NCBI GenBank assembly: GCA_015489175.1
Contig: WGAI01000044.1
Location: forward strand, 1-32,778
DNA length: 32,778 nt
Direction: 5' to 3'
Origin: Caldifarciminota bacterium
Lineage (GTDB): Bacteria > Hydrothermota > Hydrothermia > B15-G9
Shown here: positions 3,083 to 32,778 of the stretch, piece by piece
Layout of the letters: the number at the start of each line of letters is the position of its first letter
Position numbering within the stretch: position 1 is the first letter of the stretch
The notes under the pieces: model-generated
The model's database searches: none
The model's input: the letters and a program-made list of their open reading frames with translations, nothing else
Told to the model about the DNA's origin: nothing
Program-made: the position numbers and the translations under genes

Positions 3083-4129
3083 ATGAGACGAATAGTGGTT
3101 CTTGCTGAGGGATCATTTGGGCCGCACACCTCGAAAACAGCTACAGGGCTGATCAGGTTCAGCCGTTCGCCGGTCGTAGCTGTCATAGACTCGACAAAGG
3201 CCGGCCACAAGGCCTCGGATTACATAGGTATAGGCGAAGATATCCCGATAGTGGCCTCCATCGAGGAGGCCATGCAGTTTGAACCGACCACTCTCATACT
3301 CGGCACATCCCCGATGGGCGGTAGGATCCCCGATGAGTGGCGGAAAATCATCGTGGATGCGATAACTCACGGCCTCGATGTAGAGTCCGGCATGCATCAG
3401 TTCCTGTCGGATGACCCAGAATTTGTTGAGTTGAGCAAAAAATACGGCACACGCCTCATGGATTACCGTAAAGTGCCGCCCGAATACAACAGGATTCCCG
3501 ACATGCAGGACACGGACGGATTTGTCGTCCTTGTTGCGGGTCTGGATTCAAATATCGGGAAGATGACAACTGCTGTTGAGCTCATACGCGCGGCCGAACG
3601 GCTTGGCAGGGACGATGTCGTGATGGCTCCAACGGGCCAAACCGGCATCATGCTGGAGGGATGGGGCATAGCAATTGACCATGTGCTCAGCGATTTCCTC
3701 GCAGGTGCCGTTGAGTTGCTGGTCAGAAAGGCTGTCACTGAGCATCATGGCAAAATTGTGCTTGTCGAGGGGCAGGGCTCGCTCTACCACCCGGCTTATT
3801 CCGGTGTGGCGCTCGGCTTGATGCACGGCTCAAGGCCGAATGGCATGATACTCGTCTATAATCCAAAACGGAAAGCCATCAGGAAGTTTGAGACCGTTCA
3901 CCTCCCGCCTCTCAAAGAAGCAGTCTATCATCACGAGCTGATCGCATCTTTCATAAAACCGTCGAAAGTCATCGGCATCTCAGTCGATACCTCCGATATG
4001 GATCGCGATGGCGCAGAAAAGCTTTTGAATGACCTCGAGATGGAGCTCGGCATCCCGGCATCCGATCCCATTCGGGATGGTGGGGAGAAACTGTTGCAGA
4101 CTATCATTCAGGAGGCTGAAAGGAAGTGA
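3083..4129 (+). CDS. DUF1611 family P-loop protein
   Basis: A 348-residue DUF1611-family protein. The N-terminal half (about 1-140) looks like a Rossmann-type fold (MRRIVVLAEG, then AVIDSTKAG and LILGTSPMGGRIP). The C-terminal half is a P-loop domain with a Walker A-like GLDSNIGKMTT at 153-163 and VLVEGQGSLYHPAYSG at 226-241 as the Walker B region. Some family members (DgcN) are described as acyltransferases in D-glutamate breakdown, usually beside a DgcA-type enolase; no such partner is seen here, so that role should not be assumed. The ATG lies 4 bases after the upstream stop without a clear ribosome site, so translation is probably coupled. Its stop overlaps the GTG start of the DUF488 gene. 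Family call is firm, function unknown. Confidence 0.8.
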   Translation: MRRIVVLAEGSFGPHTSKTATGLIRFSRSPVVAVIDSTKAGHKASDYIGIGEDIPIVASIEEAMQFEPTTLILGTSPMGGRIPDEWRKIIVDAITHGLDVESGMHQFLSDDPEFVELSKKYGTRLMDYRKVPPEYNRIPDMQDTDGFVVLVAGLDSNIGKMTTAVELIRAAERLGRDDVVMAPTGQTGIMLEGWGIAIDHVLSDFLAGAVELLVRKAVTEHHGKIVLVEGQGSLYHPAYSGVALGLMHGSRPNGMILVYNPKRKAIRKFETVHLPPLKEAVYHHELIASFIKPSKVIGISVDTSDMDRDGAEKLLNDLEMELGIPASDPIRDGGEKLLQTIIQEAERK

Positions 4130-14407: not shown

Positions 14408-14836
14408 TGGAAAAAAACAGTTACGAAGATTGATTTAAAATCAGGTTGTATGAATTGAAAGGAACACTTTAGCGGCTGTGAAACAGAATTTTGGAGTTCA
14501 ATCAATGCTATTTTTGATGGCTAAACACCGACTCGATATCAGAAGTGCAACTCAAATGGATTGCTTGAAAGTCAATGTCCCTTTCTTGAGCATCACCTTT
14601 GTGCGTGTCATGGAATGAAAGGATAAATTCCGTATCTCATTGGTTTGTTATGTTTGCCCGATTGGCGCAGCCATATCGCTTTTTACAGCAACGGTAGTAG
14701 CTGTGGAGGGCAAAAACAAGTTGCGCCTGTCTCTAAGTTTTTCGCGGCAGGATAATTTTTAATGGTAAAAAAACAACATGTTAAACCCAAAAGATGTGTT
14801 TCCTTTTTGTATATCAATACTTATACAACATAAAAT
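14408..14836. other. AT-rich intergenic region without a recognisable gene
   Basis: About 430 bases between purB and the promoter of the giant repeat gene hold no credible coding frame or tRNA. A 13-base AT-rich palindrome, TGATTTAAAATCA, lies at 14431-14443, but no GC-rich hairpin with T-run is seen after purB. The last 80 bases are very AT-rich and could act as an UP element. A small RNA cannot be excluded by eye. Confidence 0.5.
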
Positions 14837-14866
14837 TTGACATCGTTTTTATGGTGGATTTAGAAT
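14837..14866 (+). promoter_or_regulatory. sigma-70-type promoter for the giant surface-protein gene
   Basis: A perfect -35 TTGACA (14837-14842) and a near-perfect -10 TAGAAT (14861-14866) are separated by 18 bases. The start site would be near 14873, followed by AAGGAGG (14889-14895) and the ATG at 14904. This is the best consensus promoter in the window and implies strong constitutive expression. Confidence 0.75.
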
Positions 14867-14903
14867 TCCTTGTTTTGAAAAACAGTGTAAGGAGGTGGTA
14901 GTT

Positions 14904-15743
14904 ATGTTACAGCTGGTAATTGCTTTAGTGTTGGCCTCTGGTGTAAGACAAGGGGCCCTGACTAACAACCTGACATATAGGTCAGGTATCAGACCACCTA
15001 TCGTTGCTCAACCTCTCTCCGGGCTTGATTCCATGAATGTGAGATTTGTGGGTTCATGGCCATTCGGTGCATCTAAGGCAGTAACAGTTAACGGGGACAC
15101 AGTATTTGTAGGTTCAGGTGGAGGCATTGTCATACTTGATGCAAGCGATCCTTCCACTTTAATAAAGATAGGGGAGATAAGGACAAGAGGTTTAGTAAAA
15201 GAAATGCAATATCATGATGGGAAGTTGTATGTGGCTGATGGCCAGGGAGGAATTGAAATCTGGGATGTCACAAATGTCTCTTCTCCTGCTAAGCTTGGAG
15301 CCTATTTTCCGCCTGGATATGTGCGTGACATATTTGTATTGGGCAACTACGCTTATGTGGCTTGTATTTGGGGTGGTCTGCGAATAATAGATGTAAGTGA
15401 TCCCACAAATCCGCAAGAGGTGGGATATTACAATACACCGGGAGATGCAAATGGTGTATATGTATCAGGCAACTACGCCTATGTGGCTGATGGTGATTCT
15501 GGCCTTCGTGTTATAAATGTGAGTAACCCAGACAATCCACAAGAGGTGGGATACTACGATACACCGGGTAGTGCGTATGATGTATATGTATCAGGCAACT
15601 ACGCCTATGTGGCTGATGGTGATTCTGGCCTTCGTGTTATAAATGTGAGTAACCCAGACAATCCGCAAGAGGTGGGATACTACGATACACCGGGTTATGC
15701 GTATGATGTATATGTATCAGGCAACTATGCCTATTGTTGGTGA
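14904..15743 (+). CDS. N-terminal fragment of giant LVIVD beta-propeller surface protein (frameshifted)
   Basis: First 279 residues of what was one protein of about 2,190 residues. A short hydrophobic leader (MLQLVIALVLASG) suggests export. From about residue 60 it consists of LVIVD repeats of 42 residues, each with a core like YVADGDSGLRVINVS, which build beta-propellers on secreted proteins. The frame ends at TGA 15741-15743, in the middle of the sixth repeat, because of one extra base; the repeats continue without loss in the next frame. ATG 14904 is preferred because AAGGAGG ends eight bases upstream; the GTG at 14895 overlaps that ribosome site. Unless the frameshift is a sequence error or is bypassed, this product would be a truncated five-repeat protein. 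Confidence 0.8.
   Translation: MLQLVIALVLASGVRQGALTNNLTYRSGIRPPIVAQPLSGLDSMNVRFVGSWPFGASKAVTVNGDTVFVGSGGGIVILDASDPSTLIKIGEIRTRGLVKEMQYHDGKLYVADGQGGIEIWDVTNVSSPAKLGAYFPPGYVRDIFVLGNYAYVACIWGGLRIIDVSDPTNPQEVGYYNTPGDANGVYVSGNYAYVADGDSGLRVINVSNPDNPQEVGYYDTPGSAYDVYVSGNYAYVADGDSGLRVINVSNPDNPQEVGYYDTPGYAYDVYVSGNYAYCW
15471..15722 (+). repeat. almost identical adjacent LVIVD repeat copies
   Basis: The copies 15471-15596 and 15597-15722 differ at only 3 of 126 bases, while other neighbours differ at many positions. This points to a recent tandem duplication, immediately upstream of the frameshifted copy. Confidence 0.9.
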
Positions 15744-18700
15744 TGGCTTTGCTGGGATAAGAATAATAGATGTAAGTGACCCCACGACTCCCAATGAAGT
15801 AAGTCATTATTCCCCATCACGCTACACATTTAATGTGTATGTATCAGGTAACTACGCCTATGTAGCTAGTTCTCCACGAGGTCTGGTGATGATAGATGTG
15901 AGCGACCCTGCCAACCCTCAAGAAGTAAGTCACTACAGCATGCCGGACTTTGCAAATAGCATAGATGTGTCGGGTAATTACGTCTATCTGGCAGACGGTA
16001 ATGCTGGCCTGAGGATAATAGATGTAAGTTATCCTACGAATCCAAACGAAGTGGGGCATATTGAGACTAAAGATTTTGCGTTTGATGTGCAGGTATCAGG
16101 AAATTACGCCTATGTGGCTGATGGTGATTCCGGCCTTAGAGTGGTAGATGTCAGTGATCATACCAACCCTCAAGAAGTAGGTCATTGTTATACACATAGC
16201 TTAGCAATGGGCATTTATGTGGCGGGGAATTATGCTTATGTAGCTGATGGCGCTTCTGGTTTGAGAGTGATAGATGTGAGTAACCCAGAAAATCCGCAAG
16301 AGGTGGGATATTACGATACGCCAGGTCATGCGTATGATGTGTATGTATCAGGAAATTACGCCTATGTAGCTGATTACGATTCTGGTCTTCGTGTTATAGA
16401 TGTGAGTGACCCAGAGAACCCGCAAGAGGTGGGATATTATGATACGCCAGGTGATGCGCATGATGTGTATGTATCAGGGAATTACGCCTATGTAGCTGAT
16501 GGTAATTCCGGGGTAAGGGTAATAAATGTAAGCGATCCTGCAAATCCATACGGGGTAAGCTGTTACTACGATACGTATGCTGAAGGTGTATATGTGTCGG
16601 ACAATTATGTTTATGTAGCTGATGGTATGTATGGGGTAAGAGTAATCGATATTAGTGATCCAGAATCTCCTCGGGAAGTGGCAAATTACAGAACCCCAGA
16701 TGAGGCGAAAAATGTAGTTGAGAGAGATAACTATATCTATGTAGCTGATAAATACGCAGGGGTTCAGATATATACAATTCAAACTGAGCCACCTGAGACA
16801 CCTTCCCTTATCTCCCCGATTGGCGGTGTATGGCTGCACGATGCAACTGTAACATTGCGATGGACAGCAGTCACCAAGCTGGCTGGTGGTGTGAAATCGA
16901 GACCTATTCGCTACTTCGTTGAGTTGATGTCTAACGACTCAACCGTGCTCGTTGATACAGTTGATACAAATCAGTTGACAGTCTCTCTCAGCGAGGGCCG
17001 CTATAACTGGCATGTAAGGGCATCTGACCTTGTTGGCAATTTATCCGACTGGTCGCCTATCGATTCGTTCGGCGTTGATATCACGCCGCCAACCTCTGTG
17101 ACCCTACTTGAGCCTCAAGACGGTGAGATTTTAAGCAGTTCACACGTGTTCTTTGAGTGGACTGATGCGGAAGACACAACGAGTGGCATTGCTGGTTACT
17201 GGCTTGAGATGGCGGACAACAGCGATTTCTCATCTCCAGAAAGCCTATTTGTAAGCCCGTCGTATATTATATTGACGGTGCACGATACGATCTGCTTCTG
17301 GCGAGTGAAAGCTGTTGATAGTTCAGGGCTGACAGGTGCGTGGAGCGAGGTATGGAACTTTGAAGTTGACACCGTTGCGCCTGAGATGCCTTCGCTTGTC
17401 TCACCAGTTGGTGGTGTGTGGCTTCACAACACAAATGTGACATTAAGATGGACATCGTCGTCAAAGGGCTCCGAAGAAGCTGTTGATAACAATGTCAAAG
17501 GCTCATCTGTTCACTATGTGATCGAAGTTACGAAAGGTGCTACGACAGTTATCTTTGACACCATTGAGGTCGATACTTTTAGCACTATCCTGCAAGAGGG
17601 TGTTTATCGGTGGCATGTCAAAGCATTCGACGATGCGGGAAACCAATCCGACTGGTCACCAACTGATTCCTTTGGAGTTGACATCACGCCCCCAACCGCT
17701 GTGACTCTACTTTGGCCTCCAGATGGGGAATTTTTTAACGACCCATCTGTAAGTTTTTATTGGGATGATGCAGAAGACACCACGAGTGGAGTTGCTGGCT
17801 ACTGGCTTGAAATAGCGAGTAACAACGATTTTTCGTCTCCGGAAAGCGTGTTTGTAAGCCAATCTGAGACAACATTGACGGTGCACGATACGATCTGCTT
17901 CTGGCGAGTTAAAGCTGTTGACGGTTCGGGGCTGACAGGCGCGTGGAGCGAGACACGGAGTTTTGAAGTTGACACCGTTGCGCCTGAGATGCCTTCGCTT
18001 GTCTCACCAGTTGGTGGTGTTTGGCTACATGATACAACTGTGACCTTTAGGTGGTCACAGTCGTCAAAAGGACTCTATCATGGCATCAAAAGCTCACCTG
18101 ACCACTATCAGATAGAAATTCGGAAAGGCGACATAACTGTGATCTTTCGTACCGTTGATACCGACACTATTAGTCTGGTTCTGCAAGAAGGTGTTTATCG
18201 GTGGCGCGTTGTGGCATTTGATGATGCGGGAAACCAATCCGATTGGACACCGTTTGATTCCTTTGGAGTTGACATCACGCCTCCAACCGCTGTGACGCTC
18301 CTCACACCTCAAGACGGTGCACTATTTAACAGCTCGTCCGTGAGTTTTGACTGGACTGATGCAGAAGACACCACGAGCGGCGTTGCTGGTTACTGGCTTG
18401 AGATAGCGGGCAACAACGATTTTTCGTCTCCGGAAAGCGTGTTTGTAAGCCAATCTGAGACAACATTGACGGTGCACGATACGATCTGCTTCTGGCGAGT
18501 TAAAGCTGTTGATGGTGCAGGGCTGACAGGCGCGTGGAGCGAGGTATGGAGCTTTGAAGTTGACACCGTTGCGCCTGAGATGCCTTCGCTTGTCTCACCA
18601 GTTGGTGGTGTGTGGCTTCATGACACAAGTGTGACATTCGAATGGACATCGGCAGCGAAGTCCATGTCAGTGCGATACATTTTTGAATTGATGTATTACG

Positions 18701-21480
18701 GCATATCCATAATCGTCGATACGGTTGACACGAATGAGTTGACAGTTTCTATCAATGAAGGCCGCTATTACTGGCGAGTCAAGGCATTTGATATGGCGGG
18801 CAACCAATCTGACTGGTCTCAAATAGATTCGTTTGGAATAGATATGACGCCGCCTGACACTGTCTCTCTGATAGCTCCTACCAATGGCGCAAAGCTCAAT
18901 ACATCATCTGTAACATTTAACTGGAACGGTTCATCGGATCTCATAAGTGGGGTAATGGGATATTGGATTGAGCTTTCAAACGATAGCCTTTTTGCAACTC
19001 CAGAAAGTGTATTTGTAAGTCATCAAATCAATTATTACCTACCCGAGACTACAATAACATTGAGCGATACAACATGGTTCTGGCGTGTCAAAGCTGTTGA
19101 CAGTTCAGGTTTGTCGAGTGCGTGGAGCGAGACATGGATGTTTACCGTGGATACACAAGCACCTTTGGTCTCTTCACTTATAGATCCTATGTCAGGTGTA
19201 TGGCTACACGACACAACCGTGACATTTCGATGGTCCCAGTCATCGAAGCAATGGAGCGGACCGCTCAAAGGAAAAGAGACATCCATCCACTATGTCATAG
19301 AAGTTCTGAAAGGAAATACCATTTTAATCTCCGACACTGTCGATACCAACGAGTTGACAACCATAATTTACGAGGGCAGATACACGTGGCATGTTAAAGC
19401 GTTCGACGAGGCTGGAAACGCATCCGACTGGTCGCCGATCGATTCGTTCGGCGTTGACATCACGCCGCCGGGCGTTGTGGAGCTCATATTGCCGCCCGAT
19501 GATGCGGTTCTGAACCATCCCGATGTGACCTTCGACTGGAGCGACGCTGAGGATACCACAAGCGGCATCGCAGGCTACTGGCTGGAACTTTCGACGGATA
19601 GCCTGTTCAACTACGCTGACAGCATCTTCGTCTCGCAATCCGAAACCACGATGACGCTCAATGATACCACATGGTTCTGGAGGGTCAAAGCTGTTGATGT
19701 CTCTGGACTCTCAGGTGAATGGAGCTACAAGTTCTTGTTCACGATCGATACGAATGCTCCTCAGGCACCCGTCGCTATCTCACCTGTTGGAGGTGAATGG
19801 CTGCACGACACTTATGTGACCTTCCAGTGGACCGAGGTAAGCAAGAAGCCAATGATCATGCGCTATGTGATTGAGGTGATGAGGGATGGAGATGTTGTCC
19901 TGCACGACACGACCGATGTCAACGCGTATACGGCCGTGCTGAGTGAGGGCAGATACATCTGGCATGTTAAGGCGTTCGACGAAGCAGGTAATGCATCCGA
20001 CTGGTCGCCGATCGATTCGTTCGGCGTTGACATCACGCCGCCGGGCGTTGTTGAGCTCATATTGCCGCCCGATGATGCGGTTCTGAACCATCCCGATGTG
20101 ACCTTCGATTGGAGTGATGCTGAGGATACCACAAGCGGCGTCGCAGGCTATTGGTTGGAAGTCGGAGTAGACAGCGAGTTTATTATTGCGGATAGCGCAT
20201 TTATAACACAATCAGAGACTACTGTGGTGCTTCCGGATACCACATTTTTCTGGCGTGTCAGGGCGATCGATGGATCAGGGCTTCAAGGTGATTGGTCAGA
20301 CATCAGGAGGTTCACCATTGACAGCCGTGCCCCGGATGTACCTTCTTTATACAATCCAACAGGAGGAATTTGGCTTAGAGATACAATTGTTGATTTTAAC
20401 TGGAGCTCTGTTGAATCACCTTCAAAGCCTACGCCTGTGCATTATGTGATTGAAGTTATAAGTGGTGGTGCGACAGTTATCCACGACACGGTTGACACCA
20501 ACGAGCTGGTGGTTGTGCTTGATGAGGGCAGATACACATGGCATGTTAAAGCGTTTGACGAGGCTGGCAACGCATCCGACTGGTCGCCTATCGATTCGTT
20601 CGGCGTTGACATCACGCCGCCGACTCCGCCAGAACCAATATGGCCTATCGATAGTTTTGCAACATCAGTTGATACCATCGAGTTTGTGTGGCATCCTGCA
20701 CTCGATAACCTGAGTGGGGTTCAAGATTACCTACTTAATTTTGCCAACGACGCATGGGTGACTACCGATACCTTTGTGACAGTGGAAATAGGTCATCTCA
20801 TGGATGGTATCTACACATGGTATGTGTCCGCAACTGATACTGCTGAAAACACGAGTATTTCGGACGAGCAGGTATTCATTATAGACAGGACCGCTCCGAA
20901 TATCGAGGAGCTTACAACATGGAGCGATACAATCGGGTTCTTCGGTCCATTTGAAATTCAACTCAGGGTGACGGACAGCCTCAGCGGTGTCGGGGAAGCC
21001 TGGCTTTTCTATTCCGTTGATGGTGGCGATTTCGATTCAATACCGATGACACATGACAGCTTATGGCATGCCCAGATCCCTGCATTTTCAGATTCAATGA
21101 ACCATACAATAAGCTATTTTGTCAGAGCGTTTGACAACGCAGTCCCGCCCAATGAATGCATCAGCGAAACGATCACTTTCAATGTGACTGGCATCGAAGA
21201 GGAGCCCCATATCCTACCATCCGGGTTCGCCTTGCTCGGTGTAACGCCCAATCCGACAGGGAATTTCGTAATGTTCAAGCTCGCTGTGCCCCATAGTGGA
21301 TCGGCACATCTGGAACTGTTTGATGCAAGCGGTAGGCGGATTTTGAGCCGGGATTTTGTTCTTGAACCTGGCTACCGAATTGTGAAAGTAAACCTTAGCA
21401 GCGTGACTTCTGGCATCTATTATGCGATCATCATATACGGCAATGTCTCTGTGAAGGGCAGAATCATAGTTGTGCGTTGA
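15697..21480 (+). CDS. main part of the giant LVIVD/Ig-repeat surface protein with C-terminal sorting domain (displaced frame)
   Basis: Continuation of the frameshifted gene. The open frame begins at 15697, but the first residues are the LVIVD repeat read out of frame, no ribosome site precedes them, and sense homology begins only near 15736. Order: nine further LVIVD repeats to about 16780; about 14 Ig/FnIII-like domains in seven alternating A-B pairs (16795-20880), with type A ending in an SDWSPIDSFGVDITPP-like phrase and type B carrying DAEDTTSGVAGYWLE; an extra Ig-like domain (about 20890-21200); and a C-terminal domain with PNPTGNFVMFKL, LELFDASGRRI, SGIYYAIIIYG and a final basic VVR. 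That C-terminus resembles the T9SS type A sorting domain. Probably a cell-surface adhesin or matrix protein; ligand unknown. Confidence 0.82.
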   Translation: MRMMYMYQATMPIVGDGFAGIRIIDVSDPTTPNEVSHYSPSRYTFNVYVSGNYAYVASSPRGLVMIDVSDPANPQEVSHYSMPDFANSIDVSGNYVYLADGNAGLRIIDVSYPTNPNEVGHIETKDFAFDVQVSGNYAYVADGDSGLRVVDVSDHTNPQEVGHCYTHSLAMGIYVAGNYAYVADGASGLRVIDVSNPENPQEVGYYDTPGHAYDVYVSGNYAYVADYDSGLRVIDVSDPENPQEVGYYDTPGDAHDVYVSGNYAYVADGNSGVRVINVSDPANPYGVSCYYDTYAEGVYVSDNYVYVADGMYGVRVIDISDPESPREVANYRTPDEAKNVVERDNYIYVADKYAGVQIYTIQTEPPETPSLISPIGGVWLHDATVTLRWTAVTKLAGGVKSRPIRYFVELMSNDSTVLVDTVDTNQLTVSLSEGRYNWHVRASDLVGNLSDWSPIDSFGVDITPPTSVTLLEPQDGEILSSSHVFFEWTDAEDTTSGIAGYWLEMADNSDFSSPESLFVSPSYIILTVHDTICFWRVKAVDSSGLTGAWSEVWNFEVDTVAPEMPSLVSPVGGVWLHNTNVTLRWTSSSKGSEEAVDNNVKGSSVHYVIEVTKGATTVIFDTIEVDTFSTILQEGVYRWHVKAFDDAGNQSDWSPTDSFGVDITPPTAVTLLWPPDGEFFNDPSVSFYWDDAEDTTSGVAGYWLEIASNNDFSSPESVFVSQSETTLTVHDTICFWRVKAVDGSGLTGAWSETRSFEVDTVAPEMPSLVSPVGGVWLHDTTVTFRWSQSSKGLYHGIKSSPDHYQIEIRKGDITVIFRTVDTDTISLVLQEGVYRWRVVAFDDAGNQSDWTPFDSFGVDITPPTAVTLLTPQDGALFNSSSVSFDWTDAEDTTSGVAGYWLEIAGNNDFSSPESVFVSQSETTLTVHDTICFWRVKAVDGAGLTGAWSEVWSFEVDTVAPEMPSLVSPVGGVWLHDTSVTFEWTSAAKSMSVRYIFELMYYGISIIVDTVDTNELTVSINEGRYYWRVKAFDMAGNQSDWSQIDSFGIDMTPPDTVSLIAPTNGAKLNTSSVTFNWNGSSDLISGVMGYWIELSNDSLFATPESVFVSHQINYYLPETTITLSDTTWFWRVKAVDSSGLSSAWSETWMFTVDTQAPLVSSLIDPMSGVWLHDTTVTFRWSQSSKQWSGPLKGKETSIHYVIEVLKGNTILISDTVDTNELTTIIYEGRYTWHVKAFDEAGNASDWSPIDSFGVDITPPGVVELILPPDDAVLNHPDVTFDWSDAEDTTSGIAGYWLELSTDSLFNYADSIFVSQSETTMTLNDTTWFWRVKAVDVSGLSGEWSYKFLFTIDTNAPQAPVAISPVGGEWLHDTYVTFQWTEVSKKPMIMRYVIEVMRDGDVVLHDTTDVNAYTAVLSEGRYIWHVKAFDEAGNASDWSPIDSFGVDITPPGVVELILPPDDAVLNHPDVTFDWSDAEDTTSGVAGYWLEVGVDSEFIIADSAFITQSETTVVLPDTTFFWRVRAIDGSGLQGDWSDIRRFTIDSRAPDVPSLYNPTGGIWLRDTIVDFNWSSVESPSKPTPVHYVIEVISGGATVIHDTVDTNELVVVLDEGRYTWHVKAFDEAGNASDWSPIDSFGVDITPPTPPEPIWPIDSFATSVDTIEFVWHPALDNLSGVQDYLLNFANDAWVTTDTFVTVEIGHLMDGIYTWYVSATDTAENTSISDEQVFIIDRTAPNIEELTTWSDTIGFFGPFEIQLRVTDSLSGVGEAWLFYSVDGGDFDSIPMTHDSLWHAQIPAFSDSMNHTISYFVRAFDNAVPPNECISETITFNVTGIEEEPHILPSGFALLGVTPNPTGNFVMFKLAVPHSGSAHLELFDASGRRILSRDFVLEPGYRIVKVNLSSVTSGIYYAIIIYGNVSVKGRIIVVR
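15732..15743 (+). other. single-base frameshift inside the LVIVD array
   Basis: Sibling repeats read TAT GTG GCT GAT at this place; here the sequence is TAT T GTT GGT GAT. The extra T at 15734/15735 creates TGA at 15741. The distance between equivalent repeat positions is 127 here against exactly 126 for nearly all other copies, which pins the change to one inserted base. Confidence 0.85.
17821..17921 (+). repeat. 101-bp exact direct repeat, copy 1
   Basis: Bases 17821-17921 recur exactly at 18412-18512, 591 bases downstream, covering the second half of type B domains 2 and 3. Identity without silent changes indicates recent duplication or gene conversion. Confidence 0.9.
18412..18512 (+). 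repeat. 101-bp exact direct repeat, copy 2
   Basis: Exact copy of 17821-17921 in the following A-B pair; the flanks (GATGGTGCAG here, GACGGTTCGG there) diverge immediately after it. Confidence 0.9.
19423..19587 (+). repeat. 165-bp near-exact direct repeat, copy 1
   Basis: Matches 19996-20160 with 7 differences, mostly third-position changes. It spans the end of a type A domain and the first half of a type B domain, so the repeat crosses a domain boundary. Confidence 0.88.
19996..20160 (+). repeat. 165-bp near-exact direct repeat, copy 2
   Basis: Second copy, 573 bases after the first. A shorter third relative starts at 20575 and loses similarity after the DITPP motif. Confidence 0.88.
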
Positions 21481-21481
21481 T

Positions 21482-21516
21482 AGAGTGGGCGGGGGGGAGC
21501 CGCCTCCCGCTCTTTC
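21482..21516 (+). terminator. imperfect terminator hairpin after the giant surface-protein gene
   Basis: AGAGTGGGCGG (21482-21492) can pair with the segment ending GCTCT (21500-21513) with one wobble and one mismatch, followed by a short TTT. The T-run is poor, so it may need the second hairpin at 21598 as backup. Confidence 0.5.
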
Positions 21517-21589
21517 CATAAAAATTAGATTTTATTGCACCACACTGGACAAGTTTGTTGGAGTCGTGAATTTAACATGTTGATTAAAA

Positions 21590-21617
21590 TAAAAAGAGGG
21601 CGGAAAAACCGCCCCCT
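21590..21617 (-). terminator. intrinsic terminator of the cold-shock gene (possibly bidirectional)
   Basis: GGGCGG (21598-21603), a five-base loop and CCGCCC (21609-21614). On the minus strand the hairpin is followed by TCTTTTTATTTT, a classic intrinsic terminator about 25 bases beyond the cold-shock stop. On the plus strand it is followed by CCTTTTG, so it may also stop readthrough from the giant gene. Confidence 0.85.
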
Positions 21618-21642
21618 TTTGTTTTCTACGCTTTTGCTTTTG

Positions 21643-26308: not shown

Positions 26309-28672
26309 ATGTTGAAAAAATTGATATCTATTTTTATCTTTGTGGCTTCAATATCTGCGCAGCGTGTGGTGACCATCAGGGACATCCAATACACGACCGA
26401 TCCAAGCGGTGATTCCCCACTTGTAGGCCAGACCGTGACATTTACCGGCATCGTCACTGCAACTGCATCCCAATACCCTCCTTATAACGGCGGTTTTCTT
26501 GTTCAGGATTCATCCGGCTCGTGGCATGGCGTCTATGTGTATCTCAACCACATGGTAGTCGATGTGTCCGTCGGCGATTCGGTGAGGGTTACAGGAGAAG
26601 TTTCTGAGTATTACGGCCTTACAGAGGTAACGATAGGCTCTGAAAGCGATGTAACCATACTTGCCAGCGGACGGCCTGTGCCTCAGCCGGCGGTCGTTAC
26701 CACCTCACAGATAGCGAACGATTCCTCTGTCGCTGAGCCTTACGAGTGTGTGCTGGTTGAGGTTCACGATGCGGTCGTCACAAACGACAATCTCGGCTAC
26801 GGCCAGTGGGAGGTTGATGACGGAACTGGTCCGGCAATAGTTGACGATGCATATCCTTACTCCTACAGCCCGTCAGTGGGCGATACATTGATAATACTCA
26901 GGGGCGTAATGACTTATTCCTATGGCGAATACAAGTTGGAGCCGAGAGGGGACAACGACATAATAAGTTCGATAGACGGCACAGGTATGGCGTGGGTTGA
27001 GCCATCCGTGGTGCCGACTTCCACTACGATACCGAACTTGAGGCTCGGTTTCACAGGTGTGATGGGGAATTACGCCGTTGCTCGCATTGTTCTGCTTGTG
27101 CCAACGGCTTTCACATTTGATACATTCAACCTCAGTGGTGCGTTTGAAGGAGCAGTCGTTCAGAGGATTGGCCCACAGATAACGCTTTCAAACATATCCA
27201 TAACGGAGCATGATACGGGTTACATCGATTTTGTCAACTTTACAACGCCCTCAGAGCCTGACACTTACAGGGTGTCCGTCATGACGGCGGGCGAAAACGG
27301 CACGCCTCAGCCCATACCTGAATTCCCTGAGATTCAGGTGTTGCCGGTGGCCGGGACCGGCATGGCCTCGATATCGCCTTTCATGCTCGCTCAGTCCGAT
27401 ACCGTTGACCTCAAGCTCAGTTTTGAGGGTGAATTTGGCGTTGTGCGTGCTGTGAAATTCATCGTTCCCGGCGACCTTATCGATTGGGACGGTGAACTTG
27501 AGCTCGATGGCGCTCTGGCAAATGGCAGCCATCAGGTGAACGGTGACACGATTCTCATCTACGATGTCGAGCTAAATCCGGGCGATGCGGGATGTGTCGT
27601 CCTCAAGTCAGTGAGCCCTTATGACGGGTTCAGCGACTCATCGCGCGTTGTGGTCATGAGCGGAACCGACACGACAAACCTGACTCCGCTATCTTCAAGT
27701 CCATTGCTGGTCGTTGAGTCCTCAGATTCCACCGAGCCGTTCCTCATGCTCGGAAAGCTTCAGGCTCCGGGCGCTGATGGCTACTCATCGGCATACGAAG
27801 GGCAATTCGTCAGCGTCATCGGCGTGGTTACCGGCCCTCCATCTGCATTCTCGAGCTCAGGCAAGTTGTCGATGTATATTCAGGATGTATCGGGTGGAGT
27901 GAACATCTATGCGCCGAGCTGGAGCGGAGGCAGCTTTCAGGTCGGCCAGCTGGTGTCATTCTACGGCAGGGTGACTGAATACAATGGACTGACCGAGGTG
28001 GTGCTTGAAGGGCCGAACTACACGCTTTACGGCGGCGGATATTCGTTCGACACGACTTCGCTCAAGCCGTCTGAGCCGTTGTCCGAGAAGTATGAGGGCC
28101 GCCTCGTGAAGGTCACAGGTGAAGTCGCATCTTCGCCTGTTGAGGCCGGTGCAGGCAGGTCTTTCACCGTGTGGAACGGGTTTACGCCCATAACCGTCTA
28201 TGTTTACAACACGACAGGAGTGGATCTTTCAGAAGTTGAGCCTGGAAAGCTTGTGAGCGTCGTCGGAATTGGTGGGCAATACGACCGCGATGAGCCTTAC
28301 GACGCCGGTTACCAGCTTCTGGTTAGGTTCCAGGACGACATCCAGATTATCGGTCAGGGTAGGGACACCAGCGAAGTCTCGATCGAGGTGCATCCCAATG
28401 TGTTTGCGCCTTCTCTCGGAGAGGTGGCCAACATCGATGTGGCGGGCCCGCGCGATGCGAGATACACCCTGAGCGTCTACGATGCGCGCGGACGCTTGGT
28501 CAAGGACATCTACATCGGAAAACCGGGGCCGGCAAACGCAATATGGCGCGGCGACGACAGGTTCGGCGCACCGGTGACGGTCGGGCTTTACTTTATCAGA
28601 CTTGAAGTTCACCATCCCGACGGAAAGATCGAGACACTGACCAAAACCGTTGCGGTGGGAGATAACTTCTGA
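26309..28672 (+). CDS. secreted protein with two OB-fold domains and C-terminal FlgD-like Ig domain
   Basis: A 787-residue exported protein. MLKKLISIFIFVASISAQ is a standard signal peptide. Domains: a YhcR-type OB-fold region (about 20-215, GQTVTFTGIVTA, FLVQDSSG, VGDSVRVTGEVSEYYGLTEV), two related beta-sandwich domains beginning GTGMAWVEP (about 223) and GTGMASISP (about 348), a second OB-fold region (about 487-690, GQFVSVIGVVTGP, MYIQDVSGGVNIYAP, FYGRVTEYNGLTEV), and a C-terminal domain with YTLSVYDARGRLVKDI and GLYFIRLEV, the FlgD-like/T9SS-associated type. No nuclease active site is visible although such OB-folds often accompany extracellular nucleases. ATG 26309 is preferred over 26303 because AGGAGG ends six bases before it. 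It is coupled to ddl by a TGATG overlap. Confidence 0.83.
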   Translation: MLKKLISIFIFVASISAQRVVTIRDIQYTTDPSGDSPLVGQTVTFTGIVTATASQYPPYNGGFLVQDSSGSWHGVYVYLNHMVVDVSVGDSVRVTGEVSEYYGLTEVTIGSESDVTILASGRPVPQPAVVTTSQIANDSSVAEPYECVLVEVHDAVVTNDNLGYGQWEVDDGTGPAIVDDAYPYSYSPSVGDTLIILRGVMTYSYGEYKLEPRGDNDIISSIDGTGMAWVEPSVVPTSTTIPNLRLGFTGVMGNYAVARIVLLVPTAFTFDTFNLSGAFEGAVVQRIGPQITLSNISITEHDTGYIDFVNFTTPSEPDTYRVSVMTAGENGTPQPIPEFPEIQVLPVAGTGMASISPFMLAQSDTVDLKLSFEGEFGVVRAVKFIVPGDLIDWDGELELDGALANGSHQVNGDTILIYDVELNPGDAGCVVLKSVSPYDGFSDSSRVVVMSGTDTTNLTPLSSSPLLVVESSDSTEPFLMLGKLQAPGADGYSSAYEGQFVSVIGVVTGPPSAFSSSGKLSMYIQDVSGGVNIYAPSWSGGSFQVGQLVSFYGRVTEYNGLTEVVLEGPNYTLYGGGYSFDTTSLKPSEPLSEKYEGRLVKVTGEVASSPVEAGAGRSFTVWNGFTPITVYVYNTTGVDLSEVEPGKLVSVVGIGGQYDRDEPYDAGYQLLVRFQDDIQIIGQGRDTSEVSIEVHPNVFAPSLGEVANIDVAGPRDARYTLSVYDARGRLVKDIYIGKPGPANAIWRGDDRFGAPVTVGLYFIRLEVHHPDGKIETLTKTVAVGDNF

Positions 28673-29631
28673 TGACCATCGAGGAAGCCAGAAAGCTCCT
28701 GAAAGATAAAAAAATCGTCGTTCTTTACGGGGGCTGGTCGCTTGAGCGAGAGGTCTCTTTGAGGTCAGGCAAACGGGTTTACGATTCCCTTATCCGTCAG
28801 GGGTTTAATGCTGTCCTGTTGGATGCACAGCGCGATTACATCGATCGAATTAGGGAGCTCAGCGCCGATGTTGTGCTGATAATGCTTCACGGCAAGCCCG
28901 GCGAGGACGGCACATTTCAGGGCGCACTGGAGAGCATCGGCATCCCTTACACCGGCTCAGGCGTTCTCGCATCTGCAGCTGGAATTAACAAGGTGGCTTC
29001 CAAAAGAATCTTTCAGAGCGTCGGCATACCGACCCCTGAGTTCATATTTGTGCCGCGATGGACGAACATGGATGAGGCTTATGAGCAGGCGCTTAAGGAG
29101 ATCGGCATACCGCTTGTGATCAAGCCCAAAGACGAGGGATCAAGCCTTGGGGTGCATATCGTCCACGATGAAGCCGAGCTTAAGCGGTTTATGCAGGAGG
29201 AACGGGAAAAATTTGGCGACTTCCTGATCGAGAAATACATAAAAGGCAAGAGCGTGACAACCGGGATACTTGGCACAGGCGATGAAGCCTTCGCCGTGCC
29301 GGTTCTGGAGCTCAGAGTCAGGGGGCGTGAGTTCTACGATTACAAAGCGAAATACACTAAAGGTCTTACCGAGTTCGTCATACCGGCCGAGCTTCCGCAA
29401 CGGAGCTATGATGCGCTTCAGGAATACTCGCTGAAAGCTCACCTTGCGCTTGAGTGTCGCGGCTTTTCCCGTGTGGACGGCGTTGTGTCCGAAGATGGCC
29501 AGCCATACATACTTGAGGTAAACACCATTCCCGGAATGACGGAGCTTTCGGATCTGCCTGCTGAGGCAGAACATGCGGGCATATCCTACGATGAGCTTGT
29601 GCTTTGGATCCTCAAGTCGGCTTATGAATGA
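28672..29631 (+). CDS. ddl: D-alanine-D-alanine ligase
   Basis: Makes the D-Ala-D-Ala dipeptide for peptidoglycan using ATP; cytosolic. The 319-residue ATP-grasp protein has GGWSLEREVSLRSG (20-33), LHGKPGEDGTFQGALE, IPYTGSGVLASA, IKPKDEGSSLGVHIV, EKYIKGKSVT and the metal and substrate region GFSRVDGVVSEDGQPYILEVNTIPGMT. The length is normal. Its ATG overlaps the stop of the OB-fold gene by one base, and rsmI follows closely. No mur genes are adjacent. The presence of ddl shows the organism makes a peptidoglycan wall. Confidence 0.93.
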   Translation: MTIEEARKLLKDKKIVVLYGGWSLEREVSLRSGKRVYDSLIRQGFNAVLLDAQRDYIDRIRELSADVVLIMLHGKPGEDGTFQGALESIGIPYTGSGVLASAAGINKVASKRIFQSVGIPTPEFIFVPRWTNMDEAYEQALKEIGIPLVIKPKDEGSSLGVHIVHDEAELKRFMQEEREKFGDFLIEKYIKGKSVTTGILGTGDEAFAVPVLELRVRGREFYDYKAKYTKGLTEFVIPAELPQRSYDALQEYSLKAHLALECRGFSRVDGVVSEDGQPYILEVNTIPGMTELSDLPAEAEHAGISYDELVLWILKSAYE

Positions 29632-29641
29632 GACAACTGAT

Positions 29642-30319
29642 ATGGAAGGCAAGCTATTCGTTGTTGGAACGCCTATTGGCAACCTTGAGGACATCACATT
29701 TCGTGCGGTGAAAACGCTGAAAGATGTTGACCTTATCGCCTGCGAGGACACCAGAAGAGCTAAAATCCTGTTGCAGCACTATGAGATCGACACGCCGACG
29801 GTGTCCTACAACGAGCACAACGAGCGCCAGCGCATCCCCGAACTCATCGAAAAACTGAAGGCTGGCAGCTCAATCGCCCTGCTTTCGGATGCGGGCATGC
29901 CGACCATATCCGATCCCGGTTACAGACTGGTCAGAGCCGCGCGAGATGCGGAGATTCAGGTCATCTCCGTTCCGGGGCCCTCGGCCGTTACCGCGGCGTT
30001 ATCCGTCTCAGGACTTCCCAGCGATAGGTTCATCTTTGAGGGATTCCTGCCGAGGAAAAAGGGCAAGCGGGAACGCAAAATCATGGAATTTCGGGACGAG
30101 ACGAGGACGGTCGTGATATTCGAGTCAGTGCATCGCATAGAGAGGACGCTCCACGAGCTGGCCGAGCTGCTTGGCCGTGACAGGAAGATAGCCGTATGCC
30201 GTGAGCTCACAAAAATATTTGAGGAGGTTATCTACGGCGAAATAGGGGAAGTCATTGAAAAGATGAGGGTTAAAAAAGGCGAATTTGTGATTGTAATTGG
30301 TGGTAAGGATGTGAAATAG
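29642..30319 (+). CDS. rsmI: 16S rRNA (cytidine1402-2'-O)-methyltransferase, short form
   Basis: Transfers a methyl group from SAM to the 2'-hydroxyl of C1402 in the ribosomal decoding centre. The 225-residue product has LFVVGTPIGNLEDIT, ACEDTR, LLSDAGMPTISDPGYRLV, VPGPSAVTAALSVSGLPSDRFIFEGFLPRK and FESVHRI. It ends shortly after the methylase domain and lacks the roughly 50-residue C-terminal domain of E. coli RsmI. The start at 29642 agrees with family alignments; ATG 29624, overlapping the ddl stop, would add six residues and cannot be excluded, as neither has a good ribosome site, consistent with coupling to ddl. Confidence 0.9.
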   Translation: MEGKLFVVGTPIGNLEDITFRAVKTLKDVDLIACEDTRRAKILLQHYEIDTPTVSYNEHNERQRIPELIEKLKAGSSIALLSDAGMPTISDPGYRLVRAARDAEIQVISVPGPSAVTAALSVSGLPSDRFIFEGFLPRKKGKRERKIMEFRDETRTVVIFESVHRIERTLHELAELLGRDRKIAVCRELTKIFEEVIYGEIGEVIEKMRVKKGEFVIVIGGKDVK

Positions 30320-30342
30320 GTTATTCTACCTATTTATTTATC

Positions 30343-30362
30343 GCTGGACGCCAGCATATAAT
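30343..30362 (+). promoter_or_regulatory. cas6 -10 box with an adjoining hairpin/palindrome
   Basis: A perfect TATAAT lies at 30357-30362, about 22 bases before the cas6 ATG. Just upstream GCTGG (30343-30347) and CCAGC (30351-30355) form a 5-bp inverted repeat with a three-base centre, placed where the -35/-10 spacer would be. There is no clear -35 box. The palindrome could be an operator or a weak rsmI terminator. Confidence 0.45.
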
Positions 30363-30383
30363 AATTCTGTAAGAGAGGTTGAT

Positions 30384-31148
30384 ATGAGGATTAAGCTGAC
30401 ATTTGATCCTGTGGAAGGGCATTTAAAGTTGCCTGTTGCATACAATCACATTATTCAAAGCTTTATTTACAGGCACATAGGTAAACTTGCCGATAAGCTG
30501 CATGACGGCGGCTATCGCTACGGCAAAAGAAGTTATAAGTTGTTTACATTCTCGAGGATGCGAGCCACCGAGATAAAGTATAACCGCGACGACAGGACCC
30601 TGACATTCAGTGGAAAAATCTGGATTTACATAGCATCACTCAAAAACGACCTGCTCGAATCCCTCACATTGACGATGGTCAAAAATGAGATTTTCGAGCT
30701 TAAAGGCCAGCCCGTGCGCATTGCATCGATTGAGGTTGATATGCCCGTCGAATACCGAGCCCCAATGCTCATCAAAATGATGTCTCCTGTGACGGTTTAC
30801 AGCACCCTCATGACGCCTGACAGCCGCAAAAAAACATATTTTTACACCCCGTGGGAGGATGAGTTCAGCGAGCTGGTGATCGATAACCTTGTGCGAAAGT
30901 TCAAAGCTCTGACATCGGATGAGCCACCAGATGTCAGTTCAGCATACATAAAGCCGATAAGAGTTGACAAGCATGATCTTGTCATCACGAGGTTTAAGGG
31001 ATACCTAATCAAGGGTTGGAAAGGCATTTATGAGCTAAATCTGCCGCCGCCATACTTCGAGATCGCCTACAACACAGGTATAGGCTCAAAAAACAGTCAG
31101 GGTTTTGGGATGTTCAGGATTGTGGGCACGCACGATGATGGGAAATAG
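30384..31148 (+). CDS. cas6: CRISPR-associated endoribonuclease Cas6
   Basis: Cleaves CRISPR precursor RNA within the repeats to make crRNAs. The 254-residue protein has the RAMP hallmarks: an N-terminal ferredoxin fold with NHIIQSFIYRHI, then LHDGG and YKLFTFSRM, and the C-terminal glycine-rich loop GIGSKNSQGFGMF at 232-244. Tyr29, His40 and Lys52 are candidates for the Pyrococcus-type catalytic triad by position only. A good ribosome site (AGAGAGGTTGAT) and a TATAAT box suggest that it is expressed. No other cas gene or CRISPR array is in the window, so it is a solitary cas6 that may serve an array elsewhere. Confidence 0.88.
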   Translation: MRIKLTFDPVEGHLKLPVAYNHIIQSFIYRHIGKLADKLHDGGYRYGKRSYKLFTFSRMRATEIKYNRDDRTLTFSGKIWIYIASLKNDLLESLTLTMVKNEIFELKGQPVRIASIEVDMPVEYRAPMLIKMMSPVTVYSTLMTPDSRKKTYFYTPWEDEFSELVIDNLVRKFKALTSDEPPDVSSAYIKPIRVDKHDLVITRFKGYLIKGWKGIYELNLPPPYFEIAYNTGIGSKNSQGFGMFRIVGTHDDGK

Positions 31149-31181
31149 CCCCGTTTGAGGGTAAGCTGTGCGGCGTTTTAC

Positions 31182-31211
31182 TTGATTTGATGGGTTTAAT
31201 CGGGCTACAAT
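31182..31211 (+). promoter_or_regulatory. promoter of the glucan-binding protein-permease operon
   Basis: TTGATT (31182-31187) and TACAAT (31206-31211) are 18 bases apart, matching 4 and 5 consensus bases. The same 18-base spacing is seen in front of the giant surface-protein gene. AAAGGAGG and ATG 31243 follow. Confidence 0.5.
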
Positions 31212-31242
31212 ATGCAAAACATTGCAAAAAGGAGGAAAAAGG

Positions 31243-32376
31243 ATGAAGAATCTGGTTATGTTATTGGTTTTCACGATGATTTCCAGATATGCATGGGCGC
31301 ATCAGATAATAGTCGATGGTGATCCTTCCGATTGGACAGGTGTTGCGCCTGCCGCCGACCATTTCGCATATTCGCATGGCGAGGCGATATGGGCCGATGC
31401 AGCAGATGACGATTTGGGCGATGGCGGAGATGCACCTTACGCAGCGGACAACCCCGAACCGTATTCCTACCCGACGGATACTCTGTTTCAGGGCACCGAA
31501 GCCGACATGCTGGAATGGAGATACACATTCGACGAGGCCTCGAACAGGATCTATTTCCTGATTACCATGAACAACTATGACATAACATGGATGCCGTTCG
31601 TGGGCATAGCGATGGATCTCGACCATGCGTGGGGCAGCGGACAGACATGGCTCGGCGGATACGCTTCCCTCAAGGTAGACTCAGCCATATTCTGGGAGTA
31701 TAACATCCTTTTGAAGGACAACCACATCGTGGTTTACAACGCCCAATGGGACAGTGTAGGAGGAACCAATGAGGTGGTCTTCGACACCGCAAACAACACG
31801 ATCGAGGTGGGCGTAGATGTGTCACAGTGGGCGATCAACCCGATCACCGATGTGGATTCCGTCTATTTCGTTGTCTATTCCGGGCTTCAGGATTTCGGCA
31901 ACATGCGTGGCGTGGATTCTGTGGCATCCAGATGGAACGGAGGCGGCGGGACGGACAGCTGGGTTGATCCGAATGTGTATGACCTGTGTTTCGTGCCGTC
32001 CGACGATCAGGCCAATGATCTGAACAACTACACCGACACAAGTGCTTCTGTTGTAAGGCCTTCTTCCGCAATGCTTGTTGAAAATCATCGTATGGGGGTT
32101 GAGGAAACTGGATTTGCACCCGCACCGTTCGATTTCCACATAAACAATGTGCTGAGAAACGGTCTCTCGGTCAGATTCCATGTGCCAGAGCCATCCGACA
32201 TGAGCATAGAGATCTACTCGCCCGATGGCCGACTTGTGAGCATGCCGCTCGACAAACACATGTCAGCTGGCGATTTCAACATGTTCATCCCCGTGAACCT
32301 CAGGTCAGGCATCTACATCCTGAGAATTAAAATAGGTGCATCTTCGGTATTTGAAAAAATCGCCGTGGTGAGATGA
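31243..32376 (+). CDS. secreted glucodextranase-C-like carbohydrate-binding protein with C-terminal sorting domain
   Basis: A 377-residue exported protein. MKNLVMLLVFTMISRYAWA is a signal peptide with an AWA cleavage site. The mature protein begins IIVDGDPSDWTG, a start shared by CBM9/DOMON-like modules, and contains DDDLGDGGDAPYAAD, YSYPTDTLFQGTEADM and RIYFLITMNN, a pattern of the glucodextranase C-terminal domain (found in amylolytic enzymes). Residues about 300-377 form a sorting-type domain (MSIEIYSPDGRLVSM, SGIYILRIKIG, final VVR). No catalytic domain is seen, so it may be a surface glucan-binding protein. ATG 31243 is chosen for GGAGG seven bases upstream and the clean signal peptide; ATG 31222 precedes the ribosome site. 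Confidence 0.8.
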   Translation: MKNLVMLLVFTMISRYAWAHQIIVDGDPSDWTGVAPAADHFAYSHGEAIWADAADDDLGDGGDAPYAADNPEPYSYPTDTLFQGTEADMLEWRYTFDEASNRIYFLITMNNYDITWMPFVGIAMDLDHAWGSGQTWLGGYASLKVDSAIFWEYNILLKDNHIVVYNAQWDSVGGTNEVVFDTANNTIEVGVDVSQWAINPITDVDSVYFVVYSGLQDFGNMRGVDSVASRWNGGGGTDSWVDPNVYDLCFVPSDDQANDLNNYTDTSASVVRPSSAMLVENHRMGVEETGFAPAPFDFHINNVLRNGLSVRFHVPEPSDMSIEIYSPDGRLVSMPLDKHMSAGDFNMFIPVNLRSGIYILRIKIGASSVFEKIAVVR

Positions 32377-32778
32377 AAACCGATAAGCTAACACCTTATC
32401 TTTTCATACTGCCGTTCACGCTGATTTTCATCGTATTCCTTGGCTTTCCGTTCCTATACGCCCTTTATCTGAGCTTCCATCGGGTGGTGAACCTGTCAAA
32501 TGTCTTTGGAGGCCTGCAATTTGTGGGACTGAAGAATTACACGCAACTGCTTGGCGGATTTAACTTCTGGTGGTCGTTCGGGCTCACTCTGGTCTATGCG
32601 ATATTGCTAATTCCGCCCAACATCATCCTTGCCATCCTGATCGCAAGGGCACTCGTGAGGGATACACGACTTAACAGGGCTTACAGGACATTGTTTTTCC
32701 TGCCGTTCGTGCTGGATGTGTTCGTCGTCGGGGTGGTGTGGACGCTGATCTACACCACCCCTTACGGGGTTTTGCCAC
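32373..32778 (+). CDS. sugar ABC transporter permease, MalF/UgpA type (3' end outside window)
   Basis: Integral membrane subunit of a CUT1 sugar importer; the first 135 residues are present. Membrane segments: LFILPFTLIFIVFLGFPF (about 10-30), LTLVYAILLIPPNIILAILI (about 72-92) and TLFFLPFVLDVFVVGVVW (about 108-126). The FVGLKNYTQLL and NRAYRTLFFLPF phrases are characteristic of MalF/UgpA permeases. Its ATG overlaps the stop of the glucan-binding gene by four bases (ATGA), so the two are translationally coupled and probably act on the same sugar, plausibly a maltodextrin or another alpha-glucan. The binding protein, second permease and ATPase presumably lie nearby outside the window. Confidence 0.9.
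   Translation, partial: MKTDKLTPYLFILPFTLIFIVFLGFPFLYALYLSFHRVVNLSNVFGGLQFVGLKNYTQLLGGFNFWWSFGLTLVYAILLIPPNIILAILIARALVRDTRLNRAYRTLFFLPFVLDVFVVGVVWTLIYTTPYGVLP

Follow-up and report, generated by a model that had tools for sequence, protein, structure and literature searches.

We found that a 2,191-codon gene for a predicted type IX secretion (T9SS) surface protein is divided by a single extra base in blade 6 of its 14-blade array, and we assign a probability of about 0.5 to the reading that this gene was intact until recently and that the insertion has turned it into a fresh loss-of-function allele. The gene lies in a 32,778-nucleotide stretch of DNA (the window), which we analysed together with the rest of its source genome (G000) and with genomes of relatives.

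One extra base in repeat 6 shifts the reading frame

The gene contains a tandem array of 14 LVIVD repeats of 42 residues each (15075–16790; the parts of this gene given here are on the forward strand), which was delimited by repeat spacing, HMM matches and collinear relatives and is predicted to form two 7-bladed propellers. LVIVD repeat cores at 15333, 15459, 15585, 15711, 15838, 15964, 16090, 16216, 16342, 16468 and 16591 are spaced 126, 126, 126, 127, 126, 126, 126, 126, 126 and 123 bases apart. The odd step of 127 runs from 15711 to 15838, in the copy whose motif is at 15723, and the 123-base step close to the end of the array leaves the frame unchanged. The LVIVD HMM match changes frame between 15710 and 15736, inside one continuous array, and this switch and the 127-base spacing together place the extra base (in TATTG) at about 15734–15735, in repeat 6 of 14. 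A hairpin (AGGCA-ACTA-TGCCT, 15719–15732) just 5′ of the extra base is too short to weigh.

The upstream frame is closed by a TGA at 15741–15743 and has 27 more stops by 16581; the break is thus a genuine frameshift rather than a lone stop codon, and readthrough of the TGA or stop-codon reassignment is ruled out. The downstream frame is free of stops from 15649 to 21480 and overlaps the upstream frame by ~95 bases (15649–15743), and the whole span from the ATG at 14904 amounts to 2,191 codons. A preliminary description of this DNA had reported the odd spacing at the copy at 15723, the resulting TGA, an open remainder of the gene in the new frame and a full frame of 2,191 codons, all of which were borne out.

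Gene layout and predicted product

The upstream ORF (14904–15743; PF08309 E-value 9.7e-57) encodes a signal peptide, as judged from sequence, LVIVD repeats 1–5 and part of repeat 6. Its likely start, ATG 14904, follows a Shine-Dalgarno sequence (AGGAGG; together 14890–14906), and the GTG at 14895 that is listed as the start falls within this stretch. A sigma-70-like promoter candidate (TTGACA-18-TAGAAT, 14837–14866) has 11/12 matches and is only suggestive, since the region has about as many sigma-70-like sites as chance predicts. The downstream open frame (15649–21480), whose first listed ATG at 15697 has no convincing ribosome site, carries the remainder of repeat 6, repeats 7–14, a series of Ig/FN3-like domains (16791–21230; PF25788, 131.8 bits; PF19077, 89 bits) and a T9SS-type C-terminal sorting tail (Por_Secre_tail, 21247–21471), and a hairpin resembling a bidirectional intrinsic terminator lies 3′ of the gene (21592–21620). 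LVIVD matches scored 188.5 bits in the upstream ORF and 289.6 bits in the downstream ORF, against a cut-off of 20.2, placing both within PF08309. The sorting tail scored 23.9 bits in a whole-protein scan, under the cut-off of 27, and 27.9 bits in a genome search, passing the curated cut-off for T9SS cargo tails.

A scan of the genome contigs returned a single related locus, L050, an intact LVIVD homologue of 712 aa. A structure model of L050, of modest confidence (mean pLDDT 62.6), gave each repeat about four strands, and Foldseek searches with this model matched mainly propeller proteins, with low TM-scores. No match to phages was found, and the window contained no Rfam families or tRNAs.

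The genome encodes the type IX secretion pore. The N-terminal domain of the pore protein SprA was recognised on contig C60 of G000 (SprA_N, 113.4 bits), and SprA was found in G000 and in 12/12 relatives searched compared to 0/14 control genomes. Searches of G000 also gave about 65 matches to the sorting tail and ten to C25 peptidases; SprA, tails and C25 peptidases occur, for example, on C60, C36 and C66. Because a sorting tail, SprA, C25 peptidases and a signal-peptide-like start are all present, the intended product is predicted to be a T9SS cargo comprising two 7-bladed propellers, an Ig stalk and the tail, and the gene probably encodes an exported surface protein of an uncultured bacterium. 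More broadly, these sequence matches suggest that this uncultured class has a large repertoire of T9SS-type exports. Two G000 contigs, C6 and C65, both open with a sorting-tail fragment at bases 23–130 that has the same coordinates and score in each, a hint that the assembly is interrupted by repeats within cargo genes.

The gene is lineage-specific and variably placed

The segment that holds the gene (14411–21585) is absent from the sister species G001. Alignment of G001 to the window reaches 14410, where purB ends, at 87% and resumes at 21586 at 88%, with the two parts on separate contigs that have different neighbours. At the corresponding G001 position the entire gene unit is thus missing, and both segment ends (14410 and 21586) are synteny breakpoints against the sister species. 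In G003 and G007, purB is likewise followed by other genes, and no orthologue at the same position was found among the relatives compared. The gene is therefore lineage-specific and sits at a variable position, as expected for a dispensable surface gene. The der gene adjoins purB in G001, and in G000 it lies on contig C32 beside a histidine ammonia-lyase-like gene and an unrelated gene, a placement shared by G002. Elsewhere in the window, a Cas6-type CRISPR RNA endonuclease gene occupies 30384–31148; no CRISPR array was detected in 28600–32778, and no other cas gene was recognised among the window ORFs.

Near-identical blades fit homogenisation better than a net duplication

The two adjacent LVIVD units at 15459–15710 match at 123/126 bases, confirming the three differences in 126 reported earlier; the units starting at 15459 and 15585 differ at 15539, 15570 and 15571. 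Compared at a lag of 126, the sequence is identical for 84 bp and nearly so over about 15405–15734, and the near-identical tract ends within 8 bases of the extra base (identity break at 15728, extra base at 15735). At the DNA level, one other adjacent pair of blades matches at 106/126 and the others at 69–91/126. The preliminary description had tied the frameshift to a recent duplication. The break does adjoin the near-identical tract, but the array shows no gain in copy number: its 14 blades have the number and order seen in intact relatives, and L095 and L096 (same order) and L115 and L157 (elsewhere in the class) are intact and align collinearly to either side of the break, the two halves of the alignments abutting at the junction with no more than one residue of offset. 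Among the LVIVD arrays surveyed, 14 repeats are common and 20–21 also occur, which fits multiples of seven. A net duplication is thus ruled out by blade count and collinearity, and because the 14 collinear blades match those of intact relatives, the near-identical blades are better read as the outcome of homogenisation, by gene conversion or by duplication with compensating loss.

The link between these blades and the frameshift is itself weak. Seven other arrays with near-identical blades (≥95% over 100 bp) stay in frame, so such blades do not imply frame damage, and one broken array, L145, has none, with a best identity of 58%. Near-identical blades as the cause of the frameshift are thus unsupported.

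Frameshifts in LVIVD arrays and in the surrounding genomes

Our survey covered 62 LVIVD arrays of at least four repeats each from G000 and relatives. A frame switch was present in three, namely the window array, L124 (G027) and L145 (G038), the latter two checked by eye. L145 (about 4080–4097) and L124 (about 3291, reverse strand) are frameshifted LVIVD genes from bins that belong to other genera; their breaks fall elsewhere in the arrays than the window break, and L124 has only about five repeats, as if collapsed or deleted. All LVIVD paralogues surveyed in G000 are intact, and an intact paralogue of 1336 aa (L091:3946–7956) has the same propeller–Ig–tail layout. An apparent second broken G000 paralogue on C34, scored as '1 TGA, 1 TAA', was rejected, as the gene there is an intact one of 335 aa and the match had crossed intergenic space.

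Across about 313 kb of coding DNA aligned between G000 and G001, no clean frameshift was found in G000, and a few frameshift matches fell in short or non-coding ORFs; the G000 assembly is thus not generally indel-prone. The reverse comparison yielded one clean frameshift in about 290 kb of G001, in a 1,381-aa gene (L219 7294–11428, contig C35) that is intact in G000 (L187:3714–7856). Leaving out the index case, two frameshifts in about 98 kb of arrays compared to one in about 603 kb elsewhere (Fisher p about 0.05, with rough denominators and heterogeneous genomes) give only a hint of a higher frameshift rate in LVIVD arrays.

A fresh null allele or an assembly error

If the extra base is present in cells, the ribosome would stop at TGA 15741, leaving an upstream fragment that has a signal peptide and an incomplete five-blade propeller and lacks the sorting tail; a product restarted near 15697 would be without a signal peptide, and nothing would be expected to reach the cell surface. 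Surface delivery should thus be abolished, since the frameshift parts the export signal from the sorting tail. The event would be young, because the 6.6 kb of the gene holds no second disruption. In an estimate of stop decay that assumed a transition bias and an indel ratio, an unconstrained gene would gain ~2.2 new stops per 1% substitutions, and more counting indels, whereas none was seen; because the expected decay stops are missing, the break is either recent or absent from living cells.

Several results argue for a fresh null allele: the four intact collinear relatives read straight across the break position, the G000 paralogues are intact while 3/62 arrays of the class switch frame, the gene is lineage-specific at a variable position, and the genome retains SprA, its 65 tails and ten C25 peptidase matches. 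In addition, the extra base lies outside any homopolymer, just beyond the exact repeat. Against this reading, about 330 bp of near-identical 126-bp repeats, which put short-read assembly at risk, lie directly beside the site, sister-genome contigs (C12, C140) end within LVIVD arrays, and not one further decay mutation accompanies the break.

The main alternative, to which we give somewhat less than an even chance, is an assembly or consensus error, in which cells would hold one continuous frame and the base would have been added where reads from near-identical blades were joined. The extra base lies where near-identity between blades ends (15735 compared to 15728), sister-genome contigs stop within LVIVD arrays, the broken array L124 looks collapsed, the gene is otherwise fully open over about 2,190 codons, and assembly errors account for many of the frameshift pseudogenes in public genomes (PMC11017572). 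An error is harder to reconcile with the absence of clean frameshifts in ~313 kb compared with the sister species. Moreover, repeat joins usually alter copy number, whereas the array has its canonical 14 blades, and the exact bases at the site, TATTGTTGG, do not combine sequence from neighbouring blades.

Of the three possibilities raised in the preliminary description, a fresh pseudogene and an assembly error stand, and phase variation is unsupported. Any reading of the extra base as a true switch for a giant T9SS protein, population-variable or skipped by ribosomes and operating without a simple repeat tract, strikes us as a long shot. Reversible on/off phase variation by gain or loss of the base carries even longer odds: a surface-protein gene within a repeat array is a plausible setting, but the longest homopolymer in 15690–15770 is GGG, the site has no short tandem repeat, and the genome has no second copy or cassette, so that neither a slippery tract nor an invertible or recombining cassette marks the switch site. 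Exchange of blades would move multiples of 126 bases, which keep the frame because 126 is a multiple of three, and no collinear relative is shifted at the break position. Programmed +1 frameshifting, in which ribosomes would skip a base before TGA 15741 and make the full protein, has in its favour the ~95-base overlap within which a shift could join the frames, yet we regard it as highly improbable, as the site (UAU UGU UGG UGA) contains no recognised slippery motif, the shift is conserved in no collinear relative, and the shifts in L124 and L145 are at other array positions. A split into two separately functional genes is just as improbable, for although both parts are open and have recognisable domains, the break cuts through a blade and parts the signal peptide from the sorting tail, and restart codons near it lack a Shine-Dalgarno sequence.

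Relation to known propellers and T9SS cargo

Disrupted repetitive β-propellers, in which a frameshift or stop splits the gene, have been described (Pereira and Lupas, 2022; PMC9218822), Nostoc sp. HK-1 BBD61132.1 being one example; detached blade fragments were found with high confidence near 320/7,329 repetitive propellers (about 4%), and both decay of young propellers and possible sequencing error were discussed. The window gene resembles these cases in having tandem similar blades and a gene split by a frameshift or stop, with the rest directly downstream in another frame; here, blades continue in the other frame directly past the frameshift. It differs in that its blades are mostly diverged, with few near-identical, and it may fall outside that high-symmetry data set, which required a median blade identity over 60% (PMC9218822). 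LVIVD is not mentioned by Pereira and Lupas (2022; PMC9218822). The frameshift thus stands as an observation, and its kind is an ordinary one for repeat-rich propeller genes.

LVIVD cell-surface proteins (PF08309; Adindla et al., 2004; PMC2447325) share with the window gene tandem 42-residue repeats and a predicted surface location, whereas the window gene adds a long Ig-like stalk and a T9SS tail and has a broken frame. With type IX cargo (Por_Secre_tail, PF18962; SprA, PF14349) it has in common a signal-peptide-like N terminus, a C-terminal tail and a pore gene in the genome, but its signal peptide and tail sit in different frames. The case adds one more to the repeat-rich propeller genes that break or are misassembled, which means little by itself, and it cautions against annotating the locus as two genes. 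If the break is real, a lineage-specific T9SS surface protein has been lost, and the LVIVD lineage joins the known cycle of β-propeller amplification and decay. Separately, an intact LVIVD propeller subfamily (L095–L097, L110–L112 and L114) has blades recently homogenised at lags of one, two or three units and is a possible model for ongoing blade conversion.
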